From the NCBI GenBank assembly GCA_024742875.1, contig JANSXP010000060.1, positions 1-43,254 of the forward strand: a DNA stretch of 43,254 bases. The letters run 5' to 3'. The first letter of the stretch is position 1. Every line of letters begins with the position of its first letter. Under the pieces are notes generated by a model. That model did no database searches. It had not been told where the DNA came from and saw only the letters and a list, made by a program, of their open reading frames with translations. This DNA is from Planctomycetaceae bacterium (GTDB taxonomy: Bacteria; Planctomycetota; Planctomycetia; Planctomycetales; Planctomycetaceae). This document shows, piece after piece, positions 19,051-42,374 of the stretch. The position numbers and the translations under genes were made by a program.

Positions 19051-21150
19051 ATGTCGGTCATCGTCCCCGAATCAGAACTTCCTCAGGAGCTTTCGGTCGA
19101 AGCCGCCGTGGAAGCTGCCTATGCGTCCACTCTGGCGGAAACGGCAACCGACCTGCTCCGCGGGCTGCCGGTCCTGATTGAGTGCGACAAGGAACTGATG
19201 CCGTTTCTGTTCATGAACGTTCGCGCGCGACTCCGGCAGCACGAACTTCGGTGTCTGTTTCTGGATGGCCGCAACCCGCCTGAAGGTCAGATGCCACAGG
19301 GCATTATCAGCAACATGATCGGTCAGCTGACCGATGCGGTCCGGGGAGCAGTTGATCAGCGCGTTGTCGTCCTGCCGCACCTGGACCTGCTGGTGACCAG
19401 CCAGGGCGGGCTCACGTCCGAAGCCAAAGAAGTGGTGGCCTTGCTGTACGAGAATCCGGAACTGGTATGGCTGGGGTTTAAGGATCCGTCATTTTCACTG
19501 CCTTCGGTGATCGAAAACCTGTTTCCCCATCGCCACAGCCTGCTGGGCATTGCACGCGATCGTCTGCCACACCTGATTACGCAAAAGGAAGCGAGGAAGT
19601 TTGGCCGCCGGTTCAATCCGTGGACGCTGTACAAATATGTGTCCGGCATGAATGCCGCGCGGCTGCGACGAATGCTGTCGACGCTGGAAGGCGAAGATTA
19701 TCCGGACGACGCAAGTCGGGCGTTCGCGCAGATTCGACAGGCCACCTCGGGCGGAAAACTGGAGGTCCCAAACGTCAGCCTCGAATCGGATCTGGGCGGC
19801 TATCGGAAGGTGAAACAGCGTTTGAAGAGCGAGATTCTCGACATCCTCGCCCGCAAGGATCAGTCCACCAGCCCTGAGGAAATCGGCCGGCTGGAGGGCC
19901 TGATCCCCCGAGGCATGATCTTCTGGGGTCCTCCGGGCACTGGTAAGACACTGTTTGCCAAAGCCATGGCGACAGAAATTGGGGCCGCCATCACCATTGT
20001 TTCGGGACCGGAACTCAAAAGCCGCTGGGTGGGAGAAAGCGAAGAGAACCTGCGTCGCATCTTTCACAAAGCGCGGCAATCGGCCCCTTCGATCATTGTG
20101 TTTGACGAACTGGATTCCTTTGCCTCAGCACGCGGCACTTATACGGGCTCCGGTGTGGAACATTCCATGGTCAATCAGCTGCTGACTGAGATGGACGGCT
20201 TTAACAGTGAAGAGCTGGTGTTTGTCGTGGGCACCACCAACTTTGTCGACATGCTGGACCCGGCCCTGCTGCGGCCGGGACGCTTTGAGTTTCACCTGCA
20301 GATCCCCTACCCCGACACAGAAGATCGCCGCGCTATTCTGCAGATTTACAACGACTCGATGAACCTTCAGTTCACCGACGAAGCGCTCGACTTTGCCGTC
20401 AAACGCACGGGCGATTTTGTCGAGGGAGCGGCAGCCGGCACCCGATTCAGTGGTGACCACCTGAACGCGCTGTGTCGCTCGCTGGCACGCATCCGCCTGC
20501 GGGACGACAAAACAGGCTCTACGGAAACAGCCGACATCGAACGCGCGCTCACCGAGTGGATCGATCGTCCAAAGATGACATCCGCCGAACAAAAAGTGGT
20601 GGCCACACATGAAGCGGGACACGCCGTTGTCAACCTGTTCTGCGAACACGCGAAACCCATCGAACGCATTTCCATTCAGGGCGATGCTGCGGGCGCGCTG
20701 GGTTTTGTGCAGTATCAGGACCCAGCGCACCGGTATGTCGTCACACGGGGGCAGCTGCTCGATGATCTGTGCATTCTGATGGGAGGCCGCGAGGCCGAAC
20801 AGCTGCTGCTGGATGACATTTCCATTGGCTCAGCCGGCGATCTGGATCGGGCCACGGACATCGCCCGAGCTCTGGTGGAAGACTTTGGCATGGGTTCCCC
20901 GGATGTGGGCGTGGTGAGTTTCTCCAGCAAACGTCCGAATTCGGACGGCCGTCGCAGTGGCCTTTCTGCTTCACAACTGGAAGCCATCGACCGCTCGATC
21001 GTGCAGCTGCTGCAGGATGCCAGAGAACGCGCGGCCAGCCTGCTGACCAAACACCGGCAAATCGTGGAGCTGCTCCGTGATGAACTGCTGGAAAAACAAT
21101 CACTGGACGCCAGATCCATCGCCGCCTTTATGGATCATGCGAACGCCTAA
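19051..21150 (+). CDS. FtsH-like AAA+ zinc metalloprotease (M41), soluble, with degenerate N-terminal AAA-like region
   Basis: About 699 residues from ATG 19051 (MSVIVPESEL); the frame is open from 18934 but the extension shows no family features. The AAA+ core has Walker A GPPGTGKT (293-300), Walker B IIVFDELD (D352, E353) and RPGRFEF. The M41 zinc site is H520-E521-A-G-H524, with Asp597 in SAGDLDRAT as likely third ligand. It should unfold and degrade proteins using ATP. Unlike housekeeping FtsH it has no membrane segments. Residues 1-250 instead resemble an inactive AAA domain: a Walker-B-like strand VVVLPHLDLL but no P-loop. It heads the putative ternary system; the next gene follows after 18 bp. 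A cyanobacterial Ycf46-like layout is a possible parallel. Confidence 0.92.
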   Translation: MSVIVPESELPQELSVEAAVEAAYASTLAETATDLLRGLPVLIECDKELMPFLFMNVRARLRQHELRCLFLDGRNPPEGQMPQGIISNMIGQLTDAVRGAVDQRVVVLPHLDLLVTSQGGLTSEAKEVVALLYENPELVWLGFKDPSFSLPSVIENLFPHRHSLLGIARDRLPHLITQKEARKFGRRFNPWTLYKYVSGMNAARLRRMLSTLEGEDYPDDASRAFAQIRQATSGGKLEVPNVSLESDLGGYRKVKQRLKSEILDILARKDQSTSPEEIGRLEGLIPRGMIFWGPPGTGKTLFAKAMATEIGAAITIVSGPELKSRWVGESEENLRRIFHKARQSAPSIIVFDELDSFASARGTYTGSGVEHSMVNQLLTEMDGFNSEELVFVVGTTNFVDMLDPALLRPGRFEFHLQIPYPDTEDRRAILQIYNDSMNLQFTDEALDFAVKRTGDFVEGAAAGTRFSGDHLNALCRSLARIRLRDDKTGSTETADIERALTEWIDRPKMTSAEQKVVATHEAGHAVVNLFCEHAKPIERISIQGDAAGALGFVQYQDPAHRYVVTRGQLLDDLCILMGGREAEQLLLDDISIGSAGDLDRATDIARALVEDFGMGSPDVGVVSFSSKRPNSDGRRSGLSASQLEAIDRSIVQLLQDARERAASLLTKHRQIVELLRDELLEKQSLDARSIAAFMDHANA

Positions 21151-21168
21151 CCACAGGACCCAGCCGAC

Positions 21169-21435
21169 ATGGCCGAAATGACAATTCGCCTGCAGACCGA
21201 CCCGGTGAGCGGCAAAAAGAACATCCTTGTCAGCCTGAAGTCCGATGAAGACTCCATGCCGCATGAACATGAGCAGCAGCACAAACAGCTGGTGGAAAAA
21301 CTGATTGAAGGCGGCGTGCTCAGTGCGGCCGATGCGGGTCGCGTCATCGTTGAGCGGGAGGAAGAAACGGCCAGTGGTGAGCGTGCCCGCGAGCGTCCAC
21401 CTGCGGAACAGCAGTCTCTGGAAGAAGACGCCTGA
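21169..21435 (+). CDS. Small acidic protein coupled to the FtsH-like protease (possible ternary-system X partner)
   Basis: The 88-residue protein begins with two beta-strand-like stretches (MTIRLQTDP, NILVSLKSDED), then a helix with many His and Gln (HEHEQQHKQLVEKL), and ends in a highly charged tail (EREEETASGERA). I do not recognise a firm family. The beta-rich N-terminus weakly recalls DUF2997-like small proteins that travel with AAA genes. It starts 18 bp after the protease stop on the same strand, so it is almost certainly co-transcribed and may be an adaptor or regulator of the protease. The gene is followed by a convergent LRR gene. Confidence is high that it is a gene, low for its function. 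Confidence 0.72.
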   Translation: MAEMTIRLQTDPVSGKKNILVSLKSDEDSMPHEHEQQHKQLVEKLIEGGVLSAADAGRVIVEREEETASGERARERPPAEQQSLEEDA

Positions 21436-21482: not shown

Positions 21483-23135
21483 TCAATACTGCAGCCGGCT
21501 GCCATAAGTATCCGACATTTTTTGAGACCGGCGCAGCCCCCTGCAGTCTTTCAGCGAGAACAGCCGCAGATGCGGCAGTCGTTCTGAACAGAGCACTGTG
21601 CCGATCACGTCATTGGACGCCGTATTTTCATCAAAGTAAAAGACTCGCAGCCTGGGCAGCCGCGACTTCAGCGCGACGGCATACGGCGTGGTCTTCGTCA
21701 GTGACAGACCGGTTAGAGTCAACGACTGCAGTGCGGGCAGCGCGGCCGACTCAATCAACTCGATGATCGGCGATTCCACACCTTTGGTGCTGAATCTGTA
21801 GCTGAAACGACGATCCACGGTGAATTGCAGCAGCTGCGGGAAATGACCGGCCGCCAGCTCACGAAATCCCTGCGGTGACGGACACATCAGTGACATCGTC
21901 AAGCTCCGCAGCGAACCTGCCAGGGGGCTTTGGGCGAGTGCTCTCAGGTCTTCGACACCAACCTGCGAGTCGGTCAGATGCAGCGCCTGCAGCTGTTGCA
22001 GATGAGGGCTGCTGGCCAGTTGCTGCAGATGACCTTCCGCCAGACCGGACAGCCTCAGGTTTCGAAGCTTTCGCAGCTGGGGATGACCGGCCAGCAGCTC
22101 GACGAAGCGATCGGCGTGGGCTGGTGAGGAAAAGTGACTGAACATCTGACAATTCAGCGTGTGACACTGCGTCAGATGCTGATCACGAAACAGTGTTTCC
22201 ACAGAGCGCAGCCGCGCTTCGCCGTAAGGCAGATCCAGCTGCTGCACATGATCGAGTGTGCCGGCTTCAGACAGCAGATTCAGCCCTGTTGCCGGCAGCG
22301 ATGTGATCCGCAAACGCTGCAGTCGCCCAACAGCAAGTGCGGTCAGCTGGCGGACATCCGCCACACTGAGCGGGCCATCCACATCAAGTTCTTCCAGTGG
22401 GCCACACGCCAGTGACAGCGGTGTGGTGTCACGCGTCTGTTCTGAAAAAGATTTCAGCTGCAGGACCCTCAGGGCGGGCAGGCCTATATCCTCGGCAGCG
22501 GACTCCAGAATCTGCTGAACGGCCGACCCGGTGCCAAAAAAGTGCAGCTGCTGCAGGCGACCGGCGATTTGAGCAGACCCAGTCACTCGAGCAATGTGGG
22601 CCGAAAACTGCTGTTCATAGCCACCGATCTTCAATCCCTCAAGATGGCAAAGATGTGACGACGACAGCAGTGCCAGCAGATCGGCTTCCGGGATTTTCAG
22701 ATCCGCCAGATCCAGAAATCGCACATGACGCAAAGCTTCGCAGGTGGCCCATTGATCGGCCGTGCCCCGCATGTAATTCAACCGCAGCCAGCGAACGGGA
22801 AACGAGGCGAACAGCTGATCACCGGAATTCAGAAAGGTGCGGGCTTTGACCGTCACGGTGTCAACGAAGCCCCGCGTATAGACGGCCTTGCGCACGTTCT
22901 GCTGCAGCTCGGCCGCCCACTGCGATCCGAATTCGGCCAGGAGTTCCTCATTGCGAAACTGCAGATCAAGGTATCTCGGATCCAAAGGGTCCAGCGCGTC
23001 CAGCTCACACTGCACACGAATAAACTCTCCCCGCGGACTCCCCTGTTCTTCCAGCCAGTCGGCGTAAATCAGCCGCGGGGTATCGTCTTCCGGGGCGGCC
23101 AGTACTTCCTCAAGAAAGCTGGAGGATTCGTCCAT
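21483..23135 (-). CDS. TIGR02996-type protein with leucine-rich repeats
   Basis: The 550-residue protein opens with the planctomycete repeat-companion domain: FLEEVLAAPEDDTPRLIYA, then DWLEEQGSPRGEFIRVQCEL. The remainder is about 400 residues of leucine-rich repeats, with units such as LRHVRFLDLADLKIPEADL, LRKLRNLRLSGLAEGHLQQL and LQALHLTDSQVGVEDLRAL. Such repeats give a curved surface for binding proteins. The location is cytoplasmic, with no signal peptide. It lies on the opposite strand between the FtsH-like pair and the 1122-residue gene, sharing a 199-bp divergent region with the latter. In this neighbourhood a recognition or scaffold role in the ternary system is a reasonable inference. 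The ATG at 23135 has GGGA 5 nt upstream. Confidence 0.9.
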   Translation of the reverse strand: MDESSSFLEEVLAAPEDDTPRLIYADWLEEQGSPRGEFIRVQCELDALDPLDPRYLDLQFRNEELLAEFGSQWAAELQQNVRKAVYTRGFVDTVTVKARTFLNSGDQLFASFPVRWLRLNYMRGTADQWATCEALRHVRFLDLADLKIPEADLLALLSSSHLCHLEGLKIGGYEQQFSAHIARVTGSAQIAGRLQQLHFFGTGSAVQQILESAAEDIGLPALRVLQLKSFSEQTRDTTPLSLACGPLEELDVDGPLSVADVRQLTALAVGRLQRLRITSLPATGLNLLSEAGTLDHVQQLDLPYGEARLRSVETLFRDQHLTQCHTLNCQMFSHFSSPAHADRFVELLAGHPQLRKLRNLRLSGLAEGHLQQLASSPHLQQLQALHLTDSQVGVEDLRALAQSPLAGSLRSLTMSLMCPSPQGFRELAAGHFPQLLQFTVDRRFSYRFSTKGVESPIIELIESAALPALQSLTLTGLSLTKTTPYAVALKSRLPRLRVFYFDENTASNDVIGTVLCSERLPHLRLFSLKDCRGLRRSQKMSDTYGSRLQY

Positions 23136-23334: not shown

Positions 23335-26300
23335 ATGTTGCTTCAGTTCCCCAATTCCGAAACTCTCGTACTCGCCATCAGTGGTGGCACTGTCCCGGAA
23401 GATGTCTGCGCGACGGCCGCGCAGGCGGCTGTCGCACAGGATGGCAGCATCTGGGTCGAGTTCGAAGGCCGGCTCTCGCGAACGAGCGTGCGGCAGCTCA
23501 GGGACTGGGGCACCACAGTACGCCGCGGCAGGGGGAAACTGGCTGATCAGTTCACCGAATGTGTGTCGTGGCTGCAGCTGGTTCCGCTGCAGAAGGAAAA
23601 AGGTCTGACGAGTGTCAGCGATCGTGGTCAGGCGATCTTTCAGCTGCATGACGAAAGTCTGCTGCCGGAACTGGTCAACGAGATTCTGCGACAGGGTAAT
23701 GACCGCCAGTCGTATCGGAAAATCACCGGCGATGACTCCTGCGTGCTGCTGCGAGTTATTGGCGTCCCCTACTATTCTCTGCTGCGGGCCACGGAACAAT
23801 GGGCGCAGGGCCGCATGACGGCCTTCATTGAACGCGCCCCCCGCGTGTGGATTGAAGCCGGTTATCAGCATCCGCTGGCGGCCCGGATTTCGCCCCACGC
23901 CGGTGAACACCTGCTGATCGACAAAACACAACGCTGGCAAAATCTGACAGAACGGCCGTTCGAAGACATCTATCGCCAGAGTGAATTTCTCCTGCCGGCT
24001 GCCGCAGAACCTATGGCGGATGCGACGACGCTGCCAACTTTACAGGTCCCCATTCGACTGACCCGCAGCACCGGGCAGGAGGCGGCCGAGATCTATGTCC
24101 TGACCGACAGCGCGTGCGCGCAGATGGATCAGTTTGTTCGCGCGTCCAGTGATGCCGTCCTGGAGCGACTGGCATTTGCGATCACCGAGTCGGACGATCA
24201 GTCGCCCACAATCATTGTCCGGATTCGGCCAGGTCGCGGCACGCCGCCCGTGCTCGTGTTTGATGCGCTGGCGTGCCGCAGTTTTCTGAAGATCCCCAAT
24301 TTGTTTGTCCCGGTCGGGAACCGGATTCATCCGCCGCTGCGGCGCGATGCCGTCCGCGACCTGCTGGCCGAGGACGAGTCCCGTCTGATCTGGCTGGCTC
24401 CCGTGACAGACGGCTCATCAGACGCAGCCGTGGAAACCACCCGCGCGTTTGTCGTGCGGAGCGTGGAGGACAGTGCCTTTCTGCCTCTCACCAGCTGGGT
24501 GGACTATGTCCTCGAGCGGGATGCGGAAACACTCACCACATGGCGTCTGGCGCATCAGTTCGACTTTGAAGACTTCGTCTGCAAAGAAGAACGCAAACAG
24601 ACTAAGAAGAAGCCAGTGGCTCGCCCCGAGCCTGACCGCACACCCGCTGGCACAACAGCGAGCAGCGGAAAAACGCCGCGCAAGTCTGCCGTGAAAAAGC
24701 TGATCGATCGATTTCGCGGTTCTGCAGCGCAGCCGCCAGAGGATGAAGAAATCGTCCAGCTGAAGGCAGAACTCTCGGCGGTCGAATCCCGCTTCCTCGC
24801 CATGGAGGCTCCGCTGGAGGATCCCCAGCGTCTGCCACTGTGGGATCAGATGGCCGACCTGAATGCGGCGCTGGGGCGCTCGGCCGACTCCTCGATCTGC
24901 CGGCAGCATCGGCTTTGGGATGATGACCATCCGGACGATCACAACTGGGCGCTGTGGTTTGAAACTGACGTCCAGGCGGCACATCGCCTGGGAGCCGCGA
25001 CACTGTGCAGCAGCGAAGGCCAGGTCACAGCCAGAGAGCTGCGACGGATCCTCAAAAGTACGGCCCCAGCCCCCAGCGAAGTCGCCCAGCTGGCTTCATG
25101 GATTGCCTGGTCCGCAAGCACAGACTCCGACATCGAACTGCTGCAGCAGTCGCTCGCCGCCGTGCAGCAGCATCTGGAAAAATACGAAGCCAGCCTGGCC
25201 GTGCGATCGTGCTGGCTGGCCTGGCTGGCTCTGGCCCGGATCAGCGACGACGTTCTGCTGCTGGCGCGTGCGCGGGATCGCCTGCTTGATCGCATCTATC
25301 AGCACGGACTGACGGCCGACCGCGACCTGCCCTCTTTTCTGCGCAGCGGCGGCAGCCACGCGGGAGATCGCTTCCGACAGGTGCGGGAAAAAGTCAAAGA
25401 TCTGCACGCGACCATTCGCGCGTGGAGTGTGGCCAACCAGGGCATGGCGAGCCCCAAAACAAAACAGTACATCGATCTGATCATGGCGTTTGCGTTTGCC
25501 CGGCTGGGCGAACAGTCGCTCGCCGCCGAGCTGCTCCACAGCGCCGAACAGGACCTGCTGGACAAACCCGACTTTGTCCATCACTGGCTGTACGATGCCT
25601 ATCGTTATCGCATCGAGGCGGTGCTGGCCGGACGACCGGCCGATGGTCCGTTTCCCGAAAGCCTGCTGACACGGCTGGAGCAGATTGAACGCATCGATCG
25701 CTATAAGGTGGATCGGTTGCGTCAGCATTCCTCCATCCTGGAACCGGTGGAAAAACTGAATCCGTATCACAAGTGGATTTCGCGTGACGACGAAAGTCTG
25801 GCAACGCGTCTGGGAAACCTGTTTTCGGTGAGCAGTCGCAGCGAGCTGGCAGACCGTCTGCAGGCCATTCTCGGCGAAAAACTGTCCACGGATGATCGCG
25901 CCCGTGCCGTGACCATTGGTCTGGAGCTGTCCACGCGGCTCGGCGAGCAGTTTGCCGCGGGGCTGCTCTCGGAAGTGGTCCCGCTGGACCGCAAACTGAA
26001 GGACCCGGTGGCCCGAGCCAACCTGCTGGAAAAGGGACTGCAGATCGCCGCACACTACGATCACGCGGCCGCCGTGCAGGACTGCTTTTCGCGGATGACC
26101 GCTTTGCTGGACCAGCAGACCGACGCAGAGGTGGCAACGCTGCAGGCTCTGGAAAGCCTGCTGTCACGCTCTTTTGTCACACTGCGAAAAATGGGCATGC
26201 GGGACGAGATTGCCTTTCTGCTGGAGGCCATGACCAGACTGGTGCGGGACTCCCGTCAGGAAGCCGACAGTGATCCGGAACGCCTGCGAATTCTGCTGCA

Positions 26301-26703
26301 GCTGGCCGGCGGCTGGTTCTACTTCTCGCAGGATCGCGGCTGGAAGGACATTGACGATGCCCGGCAGCTGCTGCTGAGCGGCCGGCTGATGGAAGAAGGC
26401 CATGTGGGAACCAAAAAGCAGACCGAACTGGCCATTGCGTACCTGTCGGCCGTCAGTCAGGCGCCGCTGGATGAAGCCGTCGACCGGATCAATGATCTGT
26501 TCTGCAGTCTGGAAGGCATTCGCGATGGCGCCACCGTCAACTCGCATTATTCCCTGAAACAGCTGGATATTGTGGAAGCACTCGTGCAGACGATCGTCAG
26601 TGACAGTTTCACGATGGACTCCCACAGCCAGCGGTGGCTGGACGACGAGGAGTTTCTGATACGCCGCCGTATCCACCGCGACATGAGAAACATGATGGAT
26701 TAA
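23335..26703 (+). CDS. Large two-part protein of the FtsH-MoxR-vWA system, family unassigned
   Basis: The 1122-residue cytoplasmic protein splits in two. Residues 1-410 are beta-rich with scattered helices and no catalytic motif I recognise. A basic, low-complexity linker follows at about 415-461 (KEERKQTKKKP, KTPRKSAVKKLIDRFRG). Residues about 475-1122 are almost all helical, with repeats of TPR/HEAT character, for example LIMAFAFARLGEQSLAAELLHSAEQDLL and YLSAVSQAPLDEAVDRINDLF. There is no signal peptide or membrane segment. Large proteins of this kind are what I recall as the unnamed 'X' components of FtsH ternary systems; they may be the scaffold or the target of the AAA+ machines. ATG 23335 is used; the MoxR gene follows 236 bp later on the same strand. 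Confidence 0.82.
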   Translation: MLLQFPNSETLVLAISGGTVPEDVCATAAQAAVAQDGSIWVEFEGRLSRTSVRQLRDWGTTVRRGRGKLADQFTECVSWLQLVPLQKEKGLTSVSDRGQAIFQLHDESLLPELVNEILRQGNDRQSYRKITGDDSCVLLRVIGVPYYSLLRATEQWAQGRMTAFIERAPRVWIEAGYQHPLAARISPHAGEHLLIDKTQRWQNLTERPFEDIYRQSEFLLPAAAEPMADATTLPTLQVPIRLTRSTGQEAAEIYVLTDSACAQMDQFVRASSDAVLERLAFAITESDDQSPTIIVRIRPGRGTPPVLVFDALACRSFLKIPNLFVPVGNRIHPPLRRDAVRDLLAEDESRLIWLAPVTDGSSDAAVETTRAFVVRSVEDSAFLPLTSWVDYVLERDAETLTTWRLAHQFDFEDFVCKEERKQTKKKPVARPEPDRTPAGTTASSGKTPRKSAVKKLIDRFRGSAAQPPEDEEIVQLKAELSAVESRFLAMEAPLEDPQRLPLWDQMADLNAALGRSADSSICRQHRLWDDDHPDDHNWALWFETDVQAAHRLGAATLCSSEGQVTARELRRILKSTAPAPSEVAQLASWIAWSASTDSDIELLQQSLAAVQQHLEKYEASLAVRSCWLAWLALARISDDVLLLARARDRLLDRIYQHGLTADRDLPSFLRSGGSHAGDRFRQVREKVKDLHATIRAWSVANQGMASPKTKQYIDLIMAFAFARLGEQSLAAELLHSAEQDLLDKPDFVHHWLYDAYRYRIEAVLAGRPADGPFPESLLTRLEQIERIDRYKVDRLRQHSSILEPVEKLNPYHKWISRDDESLATRLGNLFSVSSRSELADRLQAILGEKLSTDDRARAVTIGLELSTRLGEQFAAGLLSEVVPLDRKLKDPVARANLLEKGLQIAAHYDHAAAVQDCFSRMTALLDQQTDAEVATLQALESLLSRSFVTLRKMGMRDEIAFLLEAMTRLVRDSRQEADSDPERLRILLQLAGGWFYFSQDRGWKDIDDARQLLLSGRLMEEGHVGTKKQTELAIAYLSAVSQAPLDEAVDRINDLFCSLEGIRDGATVNSHYSLKQLDIVEALVQTIVSDSFTMDSHSQRWLDDEEFLIRRRIHRDMRNMMD

Positions 26704-26939: not shown

Positions 26940-27959
26940 ATGACGGACCAGGCAACAGCCCCCAAAGAAGACTGGACATACGAGGAACTGCGCAGCGAAG
27001 CCGAAGAAATTCGGCAGCGGCTGAATCTGTTTCGTACGTCGCTGGGGCGATTTTTTGTCAACAAGCAGGAGCTGATCGACCTGATGGTTGTTGCCGCCGT
27101 CGCGCAGGAACCGCTGCTGCTGGTGGGGCCGCCTGGCACCGCCAAGTCGGATCTGGTGCTGAAATTTCGCGATGCCATGGGCGTGCGTCAGGAAGACTAC
27201 TTTGAATACATGCTGACGCGGTTCAGCGAACCGTCAGAGATCATTGGCCCGATCGACATCAACCAGCTGCGTGACGGTCGCTACGTACGTCGTGAGGACG
27301 GAAAACTGCCCACCGCCCGGCTGGCATTCCTGGATGAGATCTTCAAGTCCAACTCAGCGATTCTCAATATCCTGCTGACCATCATCAACGAGCGCAAGTT
27401 CTACCAGGACGGCAAGCCGCAGCCAGTATCGCTGCGAGTGCTGTTTGCGGCCACCAACGAAATCCCCGAACAGGGAGAACTCGGCGCCCTGAAGGACCGC
27501 TTTGTTCTGAAAGCGGTCAGTGGCTCCGTTCAGGACGATCACTTCACACAGCTGATTGACGCGGGACTGAATTCGGAAGTCTACAAGACGCTCAATCAGA
27601 AGCCGTGGATCGAAAACCACGCCTCCCTGGATGATGTGCTGAAGGCGGGTCGCTATCTGACTTACCAGTTTGGACAGACCACCGGCACGGCAGACGGCAG
27701 CAGCGATCGACAGCGTTTTTTCCCGGACGACGTGTTTCGGGAGTTTGAACGGCTGGTCAAAACTCTCGTGCGGGAAGACCGCATCTTCATCAGCGACCGA
27801 AAGCTGGTGAAGCTTTATAAGCTGCTGCGAGTGCGTTCGTGGCTGTTCTCCGGCGGCACCGTCACACTGGATGACCTGCGCCTGCTGTCATACCTTGGGG
27901 AAACGCATCAGGAAATGGACCTGCTGGCGGAAAAAATCCCCAACCTGCTGGGCTACTAG
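26940..27959 (+). CDS. MoxR-family AAA+ ATPase
   Basis: The start at ATG 26940 (MTDQATAPKE) has AGGAA 6 nt upstream; the longer frame from 26856 is low-complexity and ignored. The 339-residue product has Walker A GPPGTAKS (63-70), Walker B LAFLDEIFK (about 129-137), the sensor-like FAATNEIPE and the MoxR hallmark GPIDINQLRDG. MoxR ATPases act as chaperones that use a vWA partner to engage clients. The partner gene begins 2 bp after this stop, a tight pairing typical of MoxR-vWA systems. It is probably cytoplasmic and forms a hexamer. Together with the FtsH-like protease upstream it gives the AAA+/vWA/FtsH set expected of ternary systems. Confidence 0.95.
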   Translation: MTDQATAPKEDWTYEELRSEAEEIRQRLNLFRTSLGRFFVNKQELIDLMVVAAVAQEPLLLVGPPGTAKSDLVLKFRDAMGVRQEDYFEYMLTRFSEPSEIIGPIDINQLRDGRYVRREDGKLPTARLAFLDEIFKSNSAILNILLTIINERKFYQDGKPQPVSLRVLFAATNEIPEQGELGALKDRFVLKAVSGSVQDDHFTQLIDAGLNSEVYKTLNQKPWIENHASLDDVLKAGRYLTYQFGQTTGTADGSSDRQRFFPDDVFREFERLVKTLVREDRIFISDRKLVKLYKLLRVRSWLFSGGTVTLDDLRLLSYLGETHQEMDLLAEKIPNLLGY

Positions 27960-27961
27960 AT

Positions 27962-34620: not shown

Positions 34621-34629
34621 AACCACGCC

Positions 34630-36069
34630 CTATTCGATGTCACCATTCCACAAATACTCAAATTCGTCGGTCGGCTCTCCGCTGTACTGATCTTTGGCCT
34701 CGGCAAACGGGAAGGTGCCCTGCAGCTGCTTCACGCCGTCTTTGGTAATGTAGTTTTCTGTCAGGTTTAGTTGCTGCAGACTTCCGGAACCCGCCTCGCA
34801 CAGCGTAGCGACCCCCGCATCGGTAATGATCCCGCCAATCAGTTCCAGTGTTTTCAGCTGCTGGTACAGGGGCGATTTGACAAGAGCGGCCAGTCCCGCA
34901 TCGCCAACGTCGGTCAGCCGCAGTGTGAGATTTTGAAGAGAGGACAGATTTTTTGATCGGCACAGGCCTTCGAATCCTTTCAGGTCGATGTAGGCGCCTT
35001 CTGCGTCAAAGTCCATGGCGTGAGGCCAAATATATAGACTCTCCAGATTCCCCATCGACTTGTTGGCGGCCAGCACCTCCAGCGGATAACGGTCGGCGGT
35101 ATGCATCAGCGTGAGTGACTTCAGATGCGGCAGCTTCAGACGAAAGATCGCGGCGACATTGATATCGTGCGCATCCAGCTGCAGCGATTCCAGACGGGGC
35201 ATCAGCTTGATCGCGTTCTGCACAGACGGCGTCATGCAGTGGCACTGGTCCTGCTCGCTCACCTCAAAGAACCGCAGATTGTCAAACTTTGTGCCGTTGA
35301 GCAGTTTCAGTGCGGGGGCGTCATCTTCGTCCCACTCCCGTTCGGCATACTCATCCATCTCCTCCAGGTCGTAGGCGTTGGAAGGACGGCGAATCGTCAG
35401 CTTCCGCAGCGTGGAGGCCAGCGGAGATTTCTTCAGGGCCTGAGCGAATGCCGGCAGCAGATACTCAATATGCAGTGAGTCGAGAAACCCACGGCCCATC
35501 TGCCATTGATAGAATTTCTTGTTGCCCCACAGCAGGTCAGCGGGTCCCTTCTGGCCAATCAGATCGTCGGCCAGATCCCCCAGCCACTCGGCTTCATGCT
35601 CTTTCAGCAGTGCCTTCTCCCGGGCCACAAGCGGCTTGCGATCAGCGGCCTTCAGGCCTTCGTCCTCCAGCTGCCACTGAATGCGTATCAGTTCCCCCAT
35701 GGCATCCCCGCTATCCTCGAGCCAGTCGGCATAGACCAGATAGGCGGCCGGGTCGTCGGGGGATTCGAGAATGGCCTCAAGGAAGGGCTCTCGCTCTTTC
35801 GCCTGTGCCTGCGAGGCTTCTGCTTTCTTCTGCCGGGAGCCATCGTCACCGGTGACTTCCCGATAACCTTTCCCCGTCTTCTGCTTGATCAGCTTTTCGC
35901 AGGAGGCCTGTGCCTTTTGTTCGGTCTCGAAGTCTTTTGTCTTGCTTTGACCATCTGTGCCCACGCGTCCGTAGCGGACCGTATGCGAGGTTCCGTCCAG
36001 CGAAATCTCCCAGAACTTGTCCGACGTGCCCTCTTTGAGCTCAAACAGGCGGGGATTGGTATCAGCCAT
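34630..36069 (-). CDS. WGR + TIGR02996 + LRR protein, STM4015-like position
   Basis: The start is ATG 36069 (MADTNPRLFELKEG) with AGGA 8 nt upstream; it overlaps the stop of the STM4011-like gene by 8 bp. The 479-residue protein has three parts: a WGR domain at about 5-72 (FWEISLDGTSHTVRYGRVGTD), a TIGR02996 domain at about 95-190 (LVYADWLEDSGDAMGELIRIQ), and leucine-rich repeats at about 230-450 (LKSLTLMHTADRYPLEVL, LKTLELIGGIITDAGVATL). WGR domains bind nucleic acid or proteins. In Salmonella the STM4015 family has LRRs; this one carries extra N-terminal domains. I infer that it is the cassette's LRR member from its place and LRRs, not from an alignment. Confidence 0.85.
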   Translation of the reverse strand: MADTNPRLFELKEGTSDKFWEISLDGTSHTVRYGRVGTDGQSKTKDFETEQKAQASCEKLIKQKTGKGYREVTGDDGSRQKKAEASQAQAKEREPFLEAILESPDDPAAYLVYADWLEDSGDAMGELIRIQWQLEDEGLKAADRKPLVAREKALLKEHEAEWLGDLADDLIGQKGPADLLWGNKKFYQWQMGRGFLDSLHIEYLLPAFAQALKKSPLASTLRKLTIRRPSNAYDLEEMDEYAEREWDEDDAPALKLLNGTKFDNLRFFEVSEQDQCHCMTPSVQNAIKLMPRLESLQLDAHDINVAAIFRLKLPHLKSLTLMHTADRYPLEVLAANKSMGNLESLYIWPHAMDFDAEGAYIDLKGFEGLCRSKNLSSLQNLTLRLTDVGDAGLAALVKSPLYQQLKTLELIGGIITDAGVATLCEAGSGSLQQLNLTENYITKDGVKQLQGTFPFAEAKDQYSGEPTDEFEYLWNGDIE

Positions 36070-36982
36070 AGGTCTTTCCTGACACTTGAAAGTCTGCGGA
36101 AGCGGGAAGGTGGTCCGAATACGCCAGCGGGATTCGCTCCAGCACGCCAGAGCCAAACACCGGCTGCAGATTCAGCACGGGCAAATGCACATAGCCGATA
36201 TGGCAACCGCAGGTCGAATTGGGACAGGCGGCCGAATCGACGGGGAAACGCCAGTCTTCGGCGTACAGATTTCCCAGATCTTCAGAGACGAAATGGCAGC
36301 GACGCACGCGACCGTCTCCGTTAATCGAAAACACGCTGCGGCCCGTCTGGCAGTCCTGCCCGGCACTCGGATAATCACGCGTGTTTATCTCGAAGTAAGG
36401 GTCCACAGCTGTCAGCCGGTCCCGCTGCTGCGGGGAGTATTCGTACTTGCGTCCATCGCCTGTATCCCAGGCGTTCAGCCACAGATAAGTGGATGCGGGC
36501 AGCAAACGCCGCAGCGATTCAATTTCTGCGAAGTCTTCCGGGCGAGCAACCATCCCCACGCTGTGCCGAATGCCGCGGCGACGCAGTTCGCGACATGCCG
36601 CCAGAAACGCATGCCGGGAAACCTCTGATGGGTGATAGGTACACCACAGCGCCAGTCGTTCCGTCCGACACTCATTCAGCCATGGCGTCGCCCACGACAG
36701 ATTCGTTTGCACGACAATTTTGCGAATGTGCGCGCGGTGCGTCAGTTGCTGCACGGCTGTCTGATACCAGCGACGTGTGAGCGCTTCACCCCAGGGGGTA
36801 AAAAACAGGGACAGCTGAGATTCTCGATGCGCGGTCGCCCAGTCGACAAACCGCTCCAGGGCCGCTCGATCCTGCTGCAGCTGAGCGGCCGTTTCGTGCC
36901 GTTTGGCAAAGGGGCAGTAAGAGCAGTCATAGTTGCAGCTGCTCAGCGGACCTCGGTAAAGCAGAGAAACATGACGCGTCAT
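36062..36982 (-). CDS. Radical SAM protein, STM4011 family
   Basis: The 306-residue protein has the radical SAM cluster motif C16-N-Y-D-C20-S-Y-C23 near the N-terminus (LLYRGPLSSCNYDCSYCPF) and TPWGEAL, resembling the usual GGEPL strand. The C-terminal part has further cysteines for a second cluster (CQTGRS, RRCHFVSEDLGNLY, CPNSTCGCHIGYVHL), as in SPASM or twitch domains. It overlaps the STM4012-like stop by 4 bp (ATGA) and the STM4015-like start by 8 bp, so the three genes are coupled. It likely modifies a peptide or small molecule by radical chemistry; the substrate is unknown. The best-fitting family is the STM4011-type named after the Salmonella gene. Confidence 0.92.
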   Translation of the reverse strand: MTRHVSLLYRGPLSSCNYDCSYCPFAKRHETAAQLQQDRAALERFVDWATAHRESQLSLFFTPWGEALTRRWYQTAVQQLTHRAHIRKIVVQTNLSWATPWLNECRTERLALWCTYHPSEVSRHAFLAACRELRRRGIRHSVGMVARPEDFAEIESLRRLLPASTYLWLNAWDTGDGRKYEYSPQQRDRLTAVDPYFEINTRDYPSAGQDCQTGRSVFSINGDGRVRRCHFVSEDLGNLYAEDWRFPVDSAACPNSTCGCHIGYVHLPVLNLQPVFGSGVLERIPLAYSDHLPASADFQVSGKTYG

Positions 36983-38346
36983 AGCAGTTCGTAGTCCTGC
37001 ATGAGTGCATGAACCTGCGGCGAGAACAGCCAGGGACCAATGGCGTCTGACCGTTCCAGTCCACTGGCAGTCAGCCGGACGCCGGCCGCATCGATGGACG
37101 CCAAATCAGCGTCTGCCAGCAACTGCAGACACGGCAGATCTTCCAGCACGTCTGTCTCGAACGCGGACGCATACTCGTCACGCAACAAACCGTCGGTCTG
37201 CATGAGTGACAAAATCACGAACCGACGTCGCTGTTCATCGGGCAACAGGCGAATCCCGTGACTGGCCTGGGCAAACGCATTCGCCGGCCGACGAATATAG
37301 TCAGCCAGAATGCCCCGCACGCCCTGACGCCCGACCGCATATTCTGTCGAATAATGCAGGCCGGATGTGTAAGAGCGGGCGCCACATCCCAGACCGATCA
37401 TACCGTCCGTCTGACAGTGATATTCGGGCACGACACTCGTTGCATCCGTGGTGACTCGGGCGTCACTGCGGCTGAACATTCGCATGGACGTCTGTCGGTA
37501 ACCGCAGGACAGCAGATATTCCCGTGCCGAGCGATAAGCGTGCAGGCGCTGGGCGTCCCACAACCTGCCCTCACGATCACTCTGTCGTCCCAGCCCCGTC
37601 AGCGGCCGGACATACAGCGGGTAAAGGTACAATTCCTCGGGCTGCCAGCGGACCGCCTCGCGGACGCACCGCATCCACTGTTCGTTCGACTGCCCCTCTC
37701 CCCCGTAAATCAGGTCAATGTTCAAATTGGGCACAGCATGTCGGCGAATTGCTTCCAGCGCGGATTGGACGTCGGCCGCTCGCTGCGGACGCCCGAGGCG
37801 GTGCGCTTCGGCCTCGTCAAACGACTGAATTCCGATGCTGACGCGATCCACACCAAAGTCAGCCAGCAGTTGCAGCTTTGTGTCGTCAATCGTGGCAGGC
37901 GACACTTCCACTCCCACAGGGATGGCGTCTCCGCGAACGCCAAACGTCTGACAGATCGCCAGCAGCCGGGCAAGCTCCGCGGCCGTCAGAAACGTGGGCG
38001 TGCCACCACCGATGGCCAGCTGTTGAATGCGAACATCGCCCACCGCCGAACGCACAACGTCCGCTTCTGTCTGCAGCTGTCGCAGATAGCGTGTGGTCAG
38101 CCCGTCTTCCGGCCGCGCCTGGGTGAACAGATTGCAGAATCCACAGCGATGTTCACAGAAAGGGACATGCAGATACAGGAACAGGGCATCGCGGTCTTCG
38201 CAGGACCACAGTTGGGCCAGGCTGACGGGTTCCGGAAACAGGCGATACGCCGTCTTGTGGGGATACGAATAGGTGTAAGACTGATACGGGGACGCGGATA
38301 CCACGTCGTTCAGATCCGGGGGGTATGCGGTTCCCGATGGAAGCAT
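36979..38346 (-). CDS. HemN-like radical SAM protein, STM4012 family
   Basis: The start is ATG 38346 (MLPSGTAYPPD), giving 455 residues; the upstream frame overlaps the hydrolase gene and is ignored. The protein resembles coproporphyrinogen III oxidase-type radical SAM enzymes: LYLHVPFC64-E-H-R-C68-G-F-C71, then QLAIGGGTPTFLT, NLNIDLIYGGEGQ, SIGIQSFDEAE and the C-terminal region with RRFVILSLMQTDGLL. Despite the similarity to HemN/HemW it is probably not a heme-pathway enzyme, given its place in the STM401x cassette. It starts 8 bp after the STM4013-like stop and overlaps the STM4011-like start by 4 bp. Confidence 0.92.
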   Translation of the reverse strand: MLPSGTAYPPDLNDVVSASPYQSYTYSYPHKTAYRLFPEPVSLAQLWSCEDRDALFLYLHVPFCEHRCGFCNLFTQARPEDGLTTRYLRQLQTEADVVRSAVGDVRIQQLAIGGGTPTFLTAAELARLLAICQTFGVRGDAIPVGVEVSPATIDDTKLQLLADFGVDRVSIGIQSFDEAEAHRLGRPQRAADVQSALEAIRRHAVPNLNIDLIYGGEGQSNEQWMRCVREAVRWQPEELYLYPLYVRPLTGLGRQSDREGRLWDAQRLHAYRSAREYLLSCGYRQTSMRMFSRSDARVTTDATSVVPEYHCQTDGMIGLGCGARSYTSGLHYSTEYAVGRQGVRGILADYIRRPANAFAQASHGIRLLPDEQRRRFVILSLMQTDGLLRDEYASAFETDVLEDLPCLQLLADADLASIDAAGVRLTASGLERSDAIGPWLFSPQVHALMQDYELL

Positions 38347-38354
38347 TGTGTGGA

Positions 38355-39149
38355 CTACGTCTGCTGGGGCAGGAAACATTCCGCGTAAGGCACATTCCAC
38401 ACTACGGGATGCGCCAGACGGTGTCCAGTATAGCCGTCTTCACCGTAGGCCGTGCCGTGATCCCCGCAGAGAATCCCAAACACCGATCCGCGCTGCTGCA
38501 GCGTCTGGAACAGACGTGGCAGCTGAGAATCCACATACGCCAGCGCAGCTGCCTGCGTATCGGTTGAATCAGAAGTGGCGCCGTCCACATACAGACAGTT
38601 CGGCTGATGAAGGGCTGACACATTCAAGAACAGAAAGACGCGCTGGTCAGCCGGCACCTGCTGCAGTGCGCTGATCGCCACATCGATCTGAAATTCGGTC
38701 GAGCGTCTTTCCGTCACACCCAGCCGGGGACTCCAGTGACTTTCCTGAAACAGGTCCGGCAACACGCGCCCCAGTGCCGACAGCTTGTTGAAAAAGCCCA
38801 CACCGCCGACACAGATGGTGTGGTACCCGACAGCCGCCAGCCCCGCCACAATATTGTCTTCTTCAAAGACAAACGTTTCTTCTGTGGTGGTTTCACTGCC
38901 GGGAAACCGCGCCGCAAAACGACGCGGATGAGGACCGGGACCTGCGGGAGTCGGCAGAAATCCGGCGAAGAAGGCCTGGTGTGCGGCAAACGTAAAACTG
39001 CCTGGCGTATGTCGCTGCTCCCATCCGGTCGGCAGCAACCGCTGCAGAAAAGGAGTCTGCCCACGAGCCATCGCGCCCGTCGCCACATCGAACCTCAGTG
39101 TGTCCAGAGTGATAAACACAATGTCGCAGGTTCCCACAATCTGCTGCAT
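38355..39149 (-). CDS. Sulfatase-fold hydrolase, STM4013/SEN3800 family
   Basis: The 264-residue protein has alkaline-phosphatase-superfamily features: DIVFITLDTLRFD (first metal Asp at about D16, D21), a middle GSFTFAAHQAFFAGFLPT in the usual nucleophile region, and GDHGTAYGEDGYTGHR with the second metal His/Asp. It lacks a signal peptide, so it works in the cytoplasm, unlike secreted sulfatases. It would cleave a phosphate or sulfate ester or transfer such a group. It is the first gene of the six-gene minus-strand operon and shares a 99-bp divergent region with the NrdG-like gene. The family name follows gene order as well as motifs. Confidence 0.9.
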   Translation of the reverse strand: MQQIVGTCDIVFITLDTLRFDVATGAMARGQTPFLQRLLPTGWEQRHTPGSFTFAAHQAFFAGFLPTPAGPGPHPRRFAARFPGSETTTEETFVFEEDNIVAGLAAVGYHTICVGGVGFFNKLSALGRVLPDLFQESHWSPRLGVTERRSTEFQIDVAISALQQVPADQRVFLFLNVSALHQPNCLYVDGATSDSTDTQAAALAYVDSQLPRLFQTLQQRGSVFGILCGDHGTAYGEDGYTGHRLAHPVVWNVPYAECFLPQQT

Positions 39150-39248
39150 CGAGAAAATCGTAACGCTCCGAAAAACATCAGGTACTGGCCTGTGAAGCAG
39201 CCCGCCCGTATCATTTCGGAATCGCCCCGTACGTCAATCGACCTGCCC

Positions 39249-39860
39249 ATGACTGACCGTCTCCTTTCCGTCGCCGAAATCGTCCCCTGCACACAGGCGG
39301 AGGGACCAGGCCGCCGGTTTGCCCTCTGGGTGCAGGGCTGTCCCCTCCGCTGCGCTGACTGCTGCAACCCGGAAATGCTGTCATTCGACAAAGGAGCACC
39401 GATGACCGTCACCGATGTTCTGCAGCAGATTGAAGTCGCCCAAAGCCTGGACATCGAGGGCATCACACTCATTGGCGGGGAACCGTTTGCTCACGCCGGA
39501 CCGCTTTCCGATCTGGCACAGCAGGTGCGGAAACGAGGCCTCAGTGTGATGATCTTCAGTGGGTTCACCTTGACGCAGCTGCAAAAGAACACGGATGTCG
39601 CCGTGGCGGCGCTGCTGGACCAAACCGATTTGCTGGTGGACGGCCCCTACGATCGCACACAGCCCGACAACACGCGTCGCTGGATCGGCTCACGCAACCA
39701 GCAGATTCACTTCCTGACGGATCGGTACAGCCCGGAAGATGCCTGCTGGTCACAGCGCGACACGCTGGAGGTTCGCTGGGATGGCAAAAACCTGCTGGTG
39801 AACGGCTTTCCGGCCGGCGACGCGACGGACCTGTGGCGGCGCCCGGGGGAGTCCTCATGA
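39249..39860 (+). CDS. NrdG-like radical SAM activating-type enzyme
   Basis: The start is ATG 39249 (MTDRLLSVAEI); the longer frame from 38736 overlaps the divergent hydrolase and is ignored. The 203-residue protein has C31-P-L-R-C35-A-D-C38 in LWVQGCPLRCADC, the NrdG/PflA-like arrangement, plus ITLIGGEPFAHAG and DLLVDGPYDRTQPD. NrdG activates anaerobic ribonucleotide reductase by making a glycyl radical. No glycyl-radical enzyme is seen in the window, so a different target is likely. The stop overlaps the next start (ATGA), so the two products are coupled. The gene faces away from the STM401x operon. Confidence 0.88.
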   Translation: MTDRLLSVAEIVPCTQAEGPGRRFALWVQGCPLRCADCCNPEMLSFDKGAPMTVTDVLQQIEVAQSLDIEGITLIGGEPFAHAGPLSDLAQQVRKRGLSVMIFSGFTLTQLQKNTDVAVAALLDQTDLLVDGPYDRTQPDNTRRWIGSRNQQIHFLTDRYSPEDACWSQRDTLEVRWDGKNLLVNGFPAGDATDLWRRPGESS

Positions 39861-40927
39861 CGGTCAGAAATGTGAGCGCTTTTGAAGCACGGCTGTTACG
39901 CATCCTCCGCGTGCTGATGGGACGCGGTCAGGTTGATCAGGTGCTGGCCATTCTTGTCCGCCCCGTGAAGCGACCTCCCTGCCTCAGTCGCGCCTGTGTG
40001 CAGCTGGTGCAAAACTATCTGGCGACCGGCATGACCGAGTTTCTGGCGCGATCCGGCTGGTCATCAGAAAAATTTCTGAACGGTGAGCGGGTTGTCACCG
40101 GGCGGCTGTGGCAGCGACATGAAATCGAACAGATGTCGCTTGAGTTTTCTGCCGCCAGCGTGGAACTACTGATCTGGCTGACCGCAGAGAACTTTGTGCA
40201 GCCGAAGCAGAAACTGAATGTTGACCCCGGTGCGCTGACTGTTGGTGATCAGCTGCTGTGGACGCGCACGTGGCTGGCCGTGCAGGACACACTGGGCGGC
40301 CCACCACTTCTGGAACAGGCGGGCTTTGCCGGACTGGGACTGCTCAATCTGCTGGCGCCCGGCGCCACCGGCCTGCAGGGCGGGGGCGGCGAACCTGGCG
40401 TGGCATTCTGGTGTCGTCCCGCTCAGGCATGGATTCTGGAATCACTGCAGGCACAGCTGTCAGAGGCTTGGGTTTCAGTGGAAGCCCGCAAACGCGTGAA
40501 TACCAGTCACAAGGAAGTTCGCCGCATCGGGCAGCATCAGGCGGCCATCCTGAAGGAGCTGTTCGACGCCGCCCAGGGGCACGGACGTCGTGATCTGTGT
40601 GTCTTCGTACTGCGGGCAGCCGCCGAACTAATGAATGACCCGGCGGGAGACTGGTTTCGGGCGATCAATGTCCAGTCGTTAAAAATGGCCGAGCGACAGG
40701 ACGTTTACATGGCCGCTTTGGCATTTTTCACAGGGCTGAATCGGCTGCACGAATGGAACCAGCAGGCCCGTTCGGTGGGCTTTTACGATGAGGACTATGA
40801 GTCGGGACAGTTCTGGAAGTCCTGCTGGGAGCACTATCAGGGAGACGAGATGCACAGGCGGGCCAGTCAGATTGCTCAGAATCTCAACCCCGTCAAAGCG
40901 ATCACCTCCGGAGAAAGTCCTTCGTGA
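39857..40927 (+). CDS. Helical accessory protein of the FtsH-type system, family unassigned
   Basis: The 364-residue protein overlaps the activase stop by 4 bp. It has a helical N-terminal part (FEARLLRILRVLMGRGQVDQVLAILV), a Gly-rich mid section (AGFAGLGLLNLLAPGATGLQGGGG) and a helical C-terminus with W-rich segments (FWKSCWEHYQGDEMHRRASQI). There is no signal peptide or catalytic motif I recognise. Its coupling to a radical SAM activase and proximity to the AAA+ modules suggest an accessory 'X' component of the ternary system; the glycine stretch is not a glycyl-radical motif. Function is unknown. Confidence 0.72.
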   Translation: MTVRNVSAFEARLLRILRVLMGRGQVDQVLAILVRPVKRPPCLSRACVQLVQNYLATGMTEFLARSGWSSEKFLNGERVVTGRLWQRHEIEQMSLEFSAASVELLIWLTAENFVQPKQKLNVDPGALTVGDQLLWTRTWLAVQDTLGGPPLLEQAGFAGLGLLNLLAPGATGLQGGGGEPGVAFWCRPAQAWILESLQAQLSEAWVSVEARKRVNTSHKEVRRIGQHQAAILKELFDAAQGHGRRDLCVFVLRAAAELMNDPAGDWFRAINVQSLKMAERQDVYMAALAFFTGLNRLHEWNQQARSVGFYDEDYESGQFWKSCWEHYQGDEMHRRASQIAQNLNPVKAITSGESPS

Positions 40928-41046: not shown

Positions 41047-41619
41047 ATGAGCCGCGCGTATCGAGTCAGCGTCAGTGAGTCAGAACGAAAAATCGTGCGA
41101 GGCAGCGATCATGTCTGCACGTGCGTGGAACTTCTGGAAATTCTCCCCAAACAGGACATGGCCACCCTGCTGTCCGAAGAACTTCTGGGACGGGGATTCG
41201 CAACAGAGGACGGGAAGCTGATCCGTCGTGAAGGCGATGTGACGATTTCCATTGATCCGGCAACTGGCGAAGTTACCGTCCAGGCGGCGATCAGTGAGGA
41301 AGTCGAACTGACGGAAAAAGTGACTGGTTGGGGGGACGAAGACTACGGCGCCGACGGTCGTCGCAAAGTGGAAGAAAATCTCCGCAAACGCGCAGAAGAA
41401 GGCCTGCAGCGTCAGGCCCAGTCGAAGGAAAACAGGCTGACCCAGCAGGCCACAGAACAGCTGGAAAGCGTGCTGCGGGATTTGCAGCCGGAACTGGACG
41501 GGGCGGTCAACAAGGTCACGGCCGCTGCGCTGAAGCAAAAAGCGGCCCAGTTGGGCGAAATCAAAGAGATCACGGAAGACACGGACAACGGTTCAATGAC
41601 CATCGTTCTGGAAGTTTAA
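41047..41619 (+). CDS. Accessory protein of the FtsH-type system, family unassigned (weak Ycf35/DUF1257 echo)
   Basis: ATG 41047 has AAGGAG 6 nt upstream, a strong ribosome binding site. The 190-residue protein opens with beta-strands (AYRVSVSESERKIVRG), then VTISIDPATGEVTVQAA, a coiled-coil-like stretch at about 107-140 (KVEENLRKRAEEGLQRQAQS), and a C-terminal AALKQKAAQLGEIKEITED and TMTIVLEV-like end. The last part weakly recalls the end of Ycf35/DUF1257. In cyanobacteria such proteins travel with the AAA protein Ycf46, which gives a parallel to the FtsH-like gene here. I rate this as a pattern only. It is likely an X component of the system. Confidence 0.72.
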   Translation: MSRAYRVSVSESERKIVRGSDHVCTCVELLEILPKQDMATLLSEELLGRGFATEDGKLIRREGDVTISIDPATGEVTVQAAISEEVELTEKVTGWGDEDYGADGRRKVEENLRKRAEEGLQRQAQSKENRLTQQATEQLESVLRDLQPELDGAVNKVTAAALKQKAAQLGEIKEITEDTDNGSMTIVLEV

Positions 41620-41669
41620 TCAGCGCCGGGTATCAAGCGTTCACGGCCTTAGCAACGCAGGAGTTCTGC

Positions 41670-42374
41670 ATGAATGAGTCCCATGCTCTTCACAGCAAAA
41701 TGCCGTGCGACGATCCTCAGGAGCAGCATCTGCTGCAGGCCATTGCCGACGATCCACACGACGACACGGTGCGGCTGATTTATGCCGACTGGCTGGAAGA
41801 ACGCCAGGACCCACGTTGTGAGTATGTGCGACTGGAATGTCGGTTTAAGCAACTGGCGAAACAGGCGAGCCACACCCCCTCGAAAACTCAGACACTCACT
41901 GGTCGCTTTCAACAGCTGCGACAGCGTCTGAGCGATCTGCTTAAGGGACCGCGGACAGCTGAAGAACGACTTCCCGCGGCTGTGCAACGGGAACTTCAGT
42001 CGCTGCGAACACGGATGACGCAGCTGCGCGAAGAATGCGAAGCGACCTGGCTGGCAGTTCTGTCACGATCGGCGGTATCCTGCTGCGAACCGACGGTCGA
42101 GTTCCAGTTTCAGTGTCCCATGAAATGGGGCGACCTCTCTCCCACGGATGATCCCTATGTCAAACACTGCTCGGCATGCGATTCCCCCGTGTATTTTGAA
42201 ATTGATCTTTCGATGGCTCAGGAACGGGCCTCCGAGGGCAAGTGCGTTTGTGTTCCTGTCGACATGACCTCGCGCCCTCCCCTGCAAGAGTTGTACGACC
42301 TGTCCGCAGAGGACGTCTGGCTGGGTATGATCGTCGAAAGCGTGGACTGCTCCGAAAACAATTTGCGTGACTAA
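41670..42374 (+). CDS. TIGR02996-domain protein with coiled coil and Cys-containing C-terminus
   Basis: ATG 41670 has CAGGAG 7 nt upstream. The 234-residue product begins with the repeat-companion domain (LLQAIADDPHDDTVRLIYA and DWLEERQDPRCEYVRLEC), followed by a helical, probably coiled-coil part (about 60-125), and ends with FQCPMKWGDLSPTDD and PYVKHCSACDSPVYFEID. The cysteines and His in that tail (C..C-like pairs) may bind zinc; this tail occurs in other planctomycete TIGR02996 proteins as I recall. It has no LRRs, unlike the other three here. It is the last gene of the plus-strand unit and ends before a convergent surface-protein gene. Confidence 0.85.
   Translation: MNESHALHSKMPCDDPQEQHLLQAIADDPHDDTVRLIYADWLEERQDPRCEYVRLECRFKQLAKQASHTPSKTQTLTGRFQQLRQRLSDLLKGPRTAEERLPAAVQRELQSLRTRMTQLREECEATWLAVLSRSAVSCCEPTVEFQFQCPMKWGDLSPTDDPYVKHCSACDSPVYFEIDLSMAQERASEGKCVCVPVDMTSRPPLQELYDLSAEDVWLGMIVESVDCSENNLRD

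Follow-up and report, generated by a model that had tools for sequence, protein, structure and literature searches.

An FtsH ternary system in a Planctomycetaceae contig and its candidate TIGR02996 and leucine-rich repeat partners

We analysed 43,254 nucleotides of DNA from a Planctomycetaceae bacterium (assembly GCA_024742875.1, contig JANSXP010000060.1), called the window here, which form one whole contig (C115) within an 8.18-Mb genome. The right half of the window carries eight plus-strand genes that make up an FtsH ternary system; by its sequence it is a system of the 'simple' type, and its core is already known. Four genes at the locus, out of nine in the whole genome, encode the 45-residue domain TIGR02996, and in the bacterial family of the window this domain was found in every genome that carries fvmX5, a marker gene of the system. 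We favour the reading, to which we give a probability of about 0.55, that TIGR02996 proteins with leucine-rich repeats (LRR) are recognition subunits of the FtsH system, or its clients, specific to this lineage. New here are the placement of a nine-gene minus-strand block within the locus, the four TIGR02996 proteins and the family-wide co-occurrence of fvmX5 and TIGR02996.

TIGR02996 proteins at FtsH ternary loci

To follow the system across genomes, fvmX5 was used as its marker in a sample of 392 genomes of the phylum and in 150 genomes of the family (f1). It was present in 10 and 8 genomes, respectively. TIGR02996 scored over its cut-off in 23 of the family genomes, and in 29 at E≤0.001. 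All eight fvmX5-positive family genomes had it over the cut-off, compared with 15 of the 142 fvmX5-negative ones (Fisher 9e-8), and the result was similar at E≤0.001 (8/8 vs 21/142, 8e-7). The association was stronger for genomes with two or more copies over the cut-off, counted by hand from the hit rows (8/8 vs 4/142, Fisher 9e-11; two of the four have three copies). Copy number was nine in the window genome (G000), three in G400 and in G403, nine in G424, 18 in G430, two in G433, 12 in G442 and five in G510. Of the eight genomes of genus g1, two have both fvmX5 and TIGR02996 and six have neither; in genus g310, five TIGR02996 copies are present in the fvmX5 genome, two in G496 and none in G445 or G513. 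Four of the nine TIGR02996 domains of the window genome lie within 0.3% of its length (binomial 8e-9, calculated post hoc).

The first of the four TIGR02996 genes, LRR_A (21483..23135, minus strand; TIGR02996 2e-20, LRR_14 1e-6 and below the Pfam cut-off), lies antisense between the genes for fvmX3-analog and fvmX7. Two others belong to the minus-strand block: LRR_B, with LRR-like repeats (32646..33464; TIGR02996 3.5e-19, LRR_6 2e-4 and below cut-off), and a WGR-TIGR02996-LRR protein that is a variant similar to STM4015 (34630..36069; WGR 1.5e-19, TIGR02996 8.5e-15, NF038076 52 bits against a cut-off of 275). The fourth (41670..42374, plus strand; TIGR02996 2e-18) has a cysteine-rich tail and lies directly 3' of fvmX5. 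A plasmid search with LRR_B gave no match at 1e-3.

Part of this neighbourhood is conserved in another genus. The eight genomes have 61 TIGR02996 genes over the cut-off, of which eight share a contig with core genes of the locus: four in the window genome, three in G510 and one in G403. In G510, where these are three of five TIGR02996 genes, a homolog of LRR_A (46% identical over 547 amino acids) adjoins fvmX7 in the same divergent layout (L128). An STM4015-STM4014 pair of G510 directly adjoins its vWA gene, and on another contig a variant set of the STM4015 variant (63%), STM4014 (40%) and LRR_B (37% identical; L129) keeps the order of the window. A TIGR02996 gene follows fvmX5 in the window, in G510 (L092) and in G403 (L097), with a different C-terminal part each time.

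LRR_A was modelled from a four-sequence alignment with a mean predicted local distance difference test score (pLDDT) of 69, the first 20 residues scoring below 65. The predicted structure has three helices over the TIGR02996 region, then one long helix, followed by an LRR of beta-alpha type. Its top fold matches in the PDB were COI1, an F-box-LRR protein (E 5e-10, template modelling (TM) score 0.40), NLRP-containing complexes and ribonuclease inhibitor. The model fits a receptor architecture, but the fold match probably stems from the LRR part.

Four side observations concern these genomes. Contig C16 of G430 carries four TIGR02996 matches within 3.3 kb (59910-63170), a sign of local expansion. 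The core stretch of G510 holds another binding-repeat protein, encoded by a WD40 propeller gene that lies between those of MoxR and fvmX7 (L128:6192-7154, minus strand), and an ATP-grasp gene lies directly 3' of its fvmX5-TIGR02996 pair (L092:6369-7442, plus strand). At the edge of the window contig, the protein encoded at 42483-43253 (minus strand) has two WG-rich segments that resemble each other and an acidic DEGSD repeat; its sole homolog among the loci compared (2e-35) is found in a 16-kb stretch of the same genome (L072, contig C99) that also has a TIGR02996 gene.

Core genes and their distribution

Six of the eight plus-strand genes match, well over the cut-offs, Pfam families named for ternary systems; the remaining two encode the FtsH protease and a radical SAM protein similar to NrdG. 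The FtsH-like AAA+/M41 metalloprotease (19051..21150; Pfam AAA 7e-42, Peptidase_M41 2e-40) contains a Walker A motif (GPPGTGKT), a Walker B motif and HEAGH. The AAA match covers residues 290-421 of the translated stretch, a second AAA domain with Walker A and B, and residues 1 to about 240 contain no P-loop and gave no match in Pfam. A hydropathy scan on the Kyte-Doolittle scale gave no strongly hydrophobic 19-residue stretch. The 88-residue fvmX3-analog follows (21169..21435; PF20002 5e-29), and it comes after ftsH also in L046, L048, L049 and L089. The next core protein, of 1122 residues (23335..26703), consists of fvmX7 (residues 3-394; PF20005 1.5e-71) and about 700 residues that match no Pfam family. 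The MoxR AAA+ ATPase (26940..27959; PF20030 bpMoxR 8e-60, a model named after the related, or sister, beta-propeller ternary systems) precedes a divergent vWA protein with a helical N region (27962..29380; PF19997 ivWA 3e-44, PF19996 ivWA-helical_N 7e-33). Beyond the minus-strand block are the genes for the NrdG/activase-like radical SAM protein (39243..39860; CPLRCADC; Fer4_12 7.5e-35, NrdG 2e-28 and below the NrdG cut-off), fvmX6 (39857..40927; PF20004 2e-69) and fvmX5 (41047..41619; PF20003 3e-55). The predicted structure of fvmX5 (pLDDT 86) has beta hairpins around one helix of about 72 residues, and a fold search with it found nothing in the PDB or among viral folds at E≤0.001.

A preliminary description made from the letters of this DNA had proposed an FtsH ternary system with several X components, and all the genes that it named were found where it had placed them. 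Its soluble FtsH-like M41 protease, small acidic partner, two-part protein of 1122 residues and MoxR ATPase with a degenerate vWA partner correspond to the proteins above, and its X components to fvmX3-analog, fvmX5, fvmX6 and fvmX7. Of the six proteins that it singled out for a domain search, those at 21169, 23335, 39857 and 41047 have fvmX domains and that at 19051 has AAA and M41; that at 31926 matched no Pfam or NCBIfam family. It had also listed TIGR02996/LRR proteins: the domain is present in four genes, and three of their products resemble LRR proteins but match the Pfam LRR models under the curated cut-offs, the repeats of LRR_A being backed by the model.

In the other genomes, the neighbourhoods were annotated, as for the hhalign comparison below, on simple open reading frames (ORFs), some of which carry extra N-terminal residues. 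A scan of genome contigs with fvmX5 gave one pattern, 76 stretches and 4 loci. The family of fvmX7 was matched in all eight fvmX5-positive family genomes and in none of the 19 fvmX5-negative ones tested. The core genes of the family genomes are often split over different contigs, and in the retrieved neighbourhoods of 21 fvmX5 loci, several of them on short contigs, a radical SAM gene was found at 12 and FtsH at nine. With the core, only the radical SAM gene similar to NrdG recurs. The order in G107 is FtsH, an X7-sized gene, MoxR, vWA, radical SAM, a small protein, an X6-sized gene and X5, although the fvmX7 family was not matched there. The proteobacterial contig L049 has radical SAM, an X6-sized gene, X5, FtsH, X3-analog and X7, an order shared by the myxobacterial L046, in which no X6 gene was identified. 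A single stretch of G442 holds radical SAM, X6, X5, a 161-residue ORF, FtsH, X3-analog, X7 and MoxR, with no vWA match in that stretch. In G178 (family f23; L035, L036, L042), fvmX5 shares a contig with a radical SAM gene, fvmX7 lies on a different one, and the retrieved stretches contain no FtsH; its FtsH ternary system may be split over contigs.

The minus-strand block

Nine minus-strand genes (29390-39149) separate the ivWA gene from the radical SAM gene similar to NrdG. The gaps between them are -46 to 117 bp and they are probably one operon. The first three encode an STM4013-family sulfatase-fold hydrolase (38355..39149; NF038075 410 bits, cut-off 250), an STM4012-family (HemN-like) radical SAM protein (36979..38400; NF006067 562 bits, cut-off 380) and an STM4011-family radical SAM protein (36062..36982; NF038073 378 bits, cut-off 200). 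After the gene for the WGR protein come an STM4014-family ATP-grasp gene (33499..34626; NF038074 225 bits, cut-off 175), LRR_B and a gene for an orphan protein of 200 residues (31926..32528; unmatched in NCBIfam and in Pfam, where the best E is 0.11). This last gene overlaps by 4 bp that of a radical SAM/SPASM protein with CxxxCxxC (30610..31929; PF04055 2e-20, SPASM 3e-8; the best NCBIfam match is to the mycofactocin maturase, 152 bits against a cut-off of 265). By its position, the 200-residue protein is a putative partner or substrate of the SPASM protein. The block ends with an FGE-sulfatase-domain protein (29390..30613; PF03781 1.7e-33), the start of which was chosen at 30613, the longest ORF beginning at 30733.

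The STM4011-STM4015 cassette is already known and uncharacterised. STM4013 was over its cut-off in 13 of the 392 genomes of the phylum sample, one of them the window genome. The stretches retrieved from all 12 others (3.6-20 kb) hold cassette genes with no FtsH core gene alongside; the sole hit, in L054, is to FtsH and of a generic AAA kind. The idea that STM401x genes belong to FtsH systems in general is not supported; they adjoin core genes only in the window genome and in G510. The preliminary description had seen one large system that included two modification cassettes, and had asked whether the genes travel together. That extent did not hold, since the block interrupts a core in which vWA and radical SAM are 0.4 kb apart in G107; at the level of genomes, joint travel holds for fvmX7 with fvmX5, and the STM cassette genes lack core neighbours in the 12 genomes, against one pair beside vWA in G510.

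These results bear on the first alternative, that the FtsH core is the whole system and that the minus-strand block (STM4011-STM4015 with the SPASM, 200-residue and FGE proteins) and the LRR genes are independent accessories that have collected in one variable region. The core-free cassettes of the 12 genomes agree with it, as does the absence of any match to the window LRR, TIGR02996 or STM proteins in the core loci compared from outside the family. Among 120 loci compared, moreover, the 200-residue and FGE proteins had no match and the SPASM protein had one weak match (L064); no genome-wide search was made with these three. The co-occurrence of fvmX5 and TIGR02996 in the family (8/8 vs 15/142) speaks against it, and so do two findings in G510, of another genus: fvmX7 has a homolog of LRR_A as its neighbour, and an STM4015-STM4014 pair lies beside vWA. 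We regard this alternative as possible, though on the unlikely side.

Proposed mechanism and relation to known systems

In the reading that we favour, the MoxR AAA+ ATPase and the degenerate vWA protein would remodel a complex of fvmX3-analog, X5, X6 and X7, and this assembly would feed or gate the soluble FtsH-type metalloprotease, with the radical SAM protein similar to NrdG modifying one partner of the machine. In this planctomycete family the machine may have gained recognition proteins, each made of a conserved helical TIGR02996 module of about 45 residues and an interchangeable LRR, WGR plus LRR or cysteine-rich part. TIGR02996 would dock these proteins onto the machine, and the LRR parts would select what it remodels or degrades, or would themselves be triggered clients. 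The STM4011-STM4015 cassette could modify its own TIGR02996-bearing LRR protein, or a peptide, and the whole may serve in conflict or stress. A sharper version, in which TIGR02996 is a docking module resembling the F-box that plugs swappable LRR, WGR or cysteine-rich receptors into the soluble FtsH/MoxR/vWA machine, seems doubtful to us. If true, this machine would be an ATP-dependent protease of bacteria that draws on an array of exchangeable substrate receptors encoded in the genome, with up to 18 TIGR02996 genes in a genome. The partnership itself offers a functional lead for TIGR02996, which is named in no paper of the literature that we searched, and candidate recognition subunits for the machine; judged by titles, that literature included no experimental study of an FtsH ternary system.

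Several results weigh against this reading. The co-occurrence tests ignore shared ancestry, relatedness having been looked at only inside genera g1 and g310, and 15 fvmX5-negative family genomes do carry TIGR02996. Outside the family the domain was over its cut-off in none of 13 fvmX5-positive genomes (one weak match in G018), and the core loci compared from there had no match to the window LRR/TIGR02996 proteins; the partnership is lineage-specific. In five of the eight fvmX5-positive family genomes the retrieved core loci contain no TIGR02996 gene, the two contigs of G424 being only 5-7 kb. The LRR fold matches, with a TM score of 0.40 for the top one, are uninformative on partners, and a sequence search of the four TIGR02996 proteins found no F-box domain model at E≤1. 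The enrichment of STM401x with fvmX5 is weak as well: 2/8 vs 12/142 over the cut-off (p 0.16), or 4/8 vs 13/142 (p 0.006) when G433 and G181, whose STM4015 copies are split, and the variant cassette of the window are added by judgement. The second count leans to the reading we favour, as the window entered it through STM4011-4014 and the other genomes through STM4015.

A second alternative is that the locus encodes a housekeeping machine for complex assembly or quality control, similar to RavA-ViaA, rather than a conflict system; it is compatible with a partnership with LRR proteins. The MoxR-vWA pairs that have been studied assemble or remodel complexes, according to the main text of Kaur et al. 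(PMC7159879). When ten window proteins were scanned with PADLOC 2.0.0, none of the eight core proteins gave a full-length match to a defence family: the FtsH AAA region matched only IetA/TRIP13, the radical SAM protein matched pVip partially and MoxR gave a short match. The one other match among the ten was that of WGR_XIII to residues 12-139 of the WGR protein. The patchy presence of fvmX5 and the multiple and variable copies of the LRR partners argue against a housekeeping role, which we consider unlikely.

A third, that of a protein-modification locus of the kind that makes ribosomally synthesized and post-translationally modified peptides, in which the STM4011/4012 and SPASM radical SAM proteins and the ATP-grasp protein modify an LRR protein or the 200-residue protein, with the FtsH system breaking down or releasing what results, is very improbable: four CxxxCxxC radical SAM proteins, an ATP-grasp protein and an FGE-domain protein do lie within about 10 kb, the SPASM and 200-residue genes overlap, and Kaur et al. 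(PMC7159879, main text) predict radical SAM peptide modification in FtsH systems, but no precursor was identified (no search was aimed at short precursor ORFs), the SPASM trio was seen only at the window among the loci compared, and the cassette is unlinked to core genes in the 12 other STM4013 genomes. The preliminary description had likewise put forward, as a working idea, a chaperone-protease machine of which a target or sensor may be chemically modified.

F-box-LRR proteins are substrate receptors of SCF ligases. By analogy only, LRR_A resembles them in having a small helical N-terminal module followed by a ribonuclease-inhibitor-type LRR; unlike them, the window TIGR02996 proteins have no F-box by sequence. 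The repeats of LRR_A do match, at 0.015, one LRR model that takes its name from an F-box protein. Another layout similar to FtsH-X5-X3, with no sequence support for kinship, is the cluster of AAA ATPase, DUF1257-like and DUF2997 genes in two planctomycetes and a Thermovibrio plasmid (L082, L083, L147). Because these clusters look parallel, kinship was tried, and not supported, for fvmX5 with Ycf35/DUF1257 (hhalign probability 5% with three template sequences, 2.7% for a MoxR control), and for X3-analog with DUF2997 (0.3%). A viral scan with the DUF1257 protein gave no match.

Comparative genomics led to the proposal of FtsH ternary systems, with a suggested role as conflict systems (Kaur et al. 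2020, eLife 9:e52696, PMC7159879). As described in the main text of that paper, the FtsH-type protein has an inactive N-terminal AAA copy and an active second AAA domain, the 'simple' type has a vWA fused to an all-helical N region and a standalone radical SAM gene, and a GXXXTAKS P-loop in MoxR is frequent and not obligatory. The window shares with these systems the FtsH-type AAA, MoxR, the fvmX components, the standalone radical SAM gene and the divergent vWA with a helical N region, which places it in the 'simple' type; its MoxR P-loop, GPPGTAKS, is of the GXXXTAKS form. Unlike them, it adds TIGR02996-LRR proteins and the STM4011-STM4015 operon: the main text, figures and source data aside, does not contain 'leucine-rich', 'tigr02996' or 'wgr', and has 'lrr' only in one reference title. 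Similar to the known STM4011-STM4015 cassette (NF038073, NF006067, NF038075, NF038074, NF038076), four window members are over their cut-offs, adjacent and co-directional. The fifth is not, and by these scores the window cassette is a variant, which differs from the known one in that its STM4015-like protein carries WGR and TIGR02996 and in that the cassette lies inside an FtsH locus.

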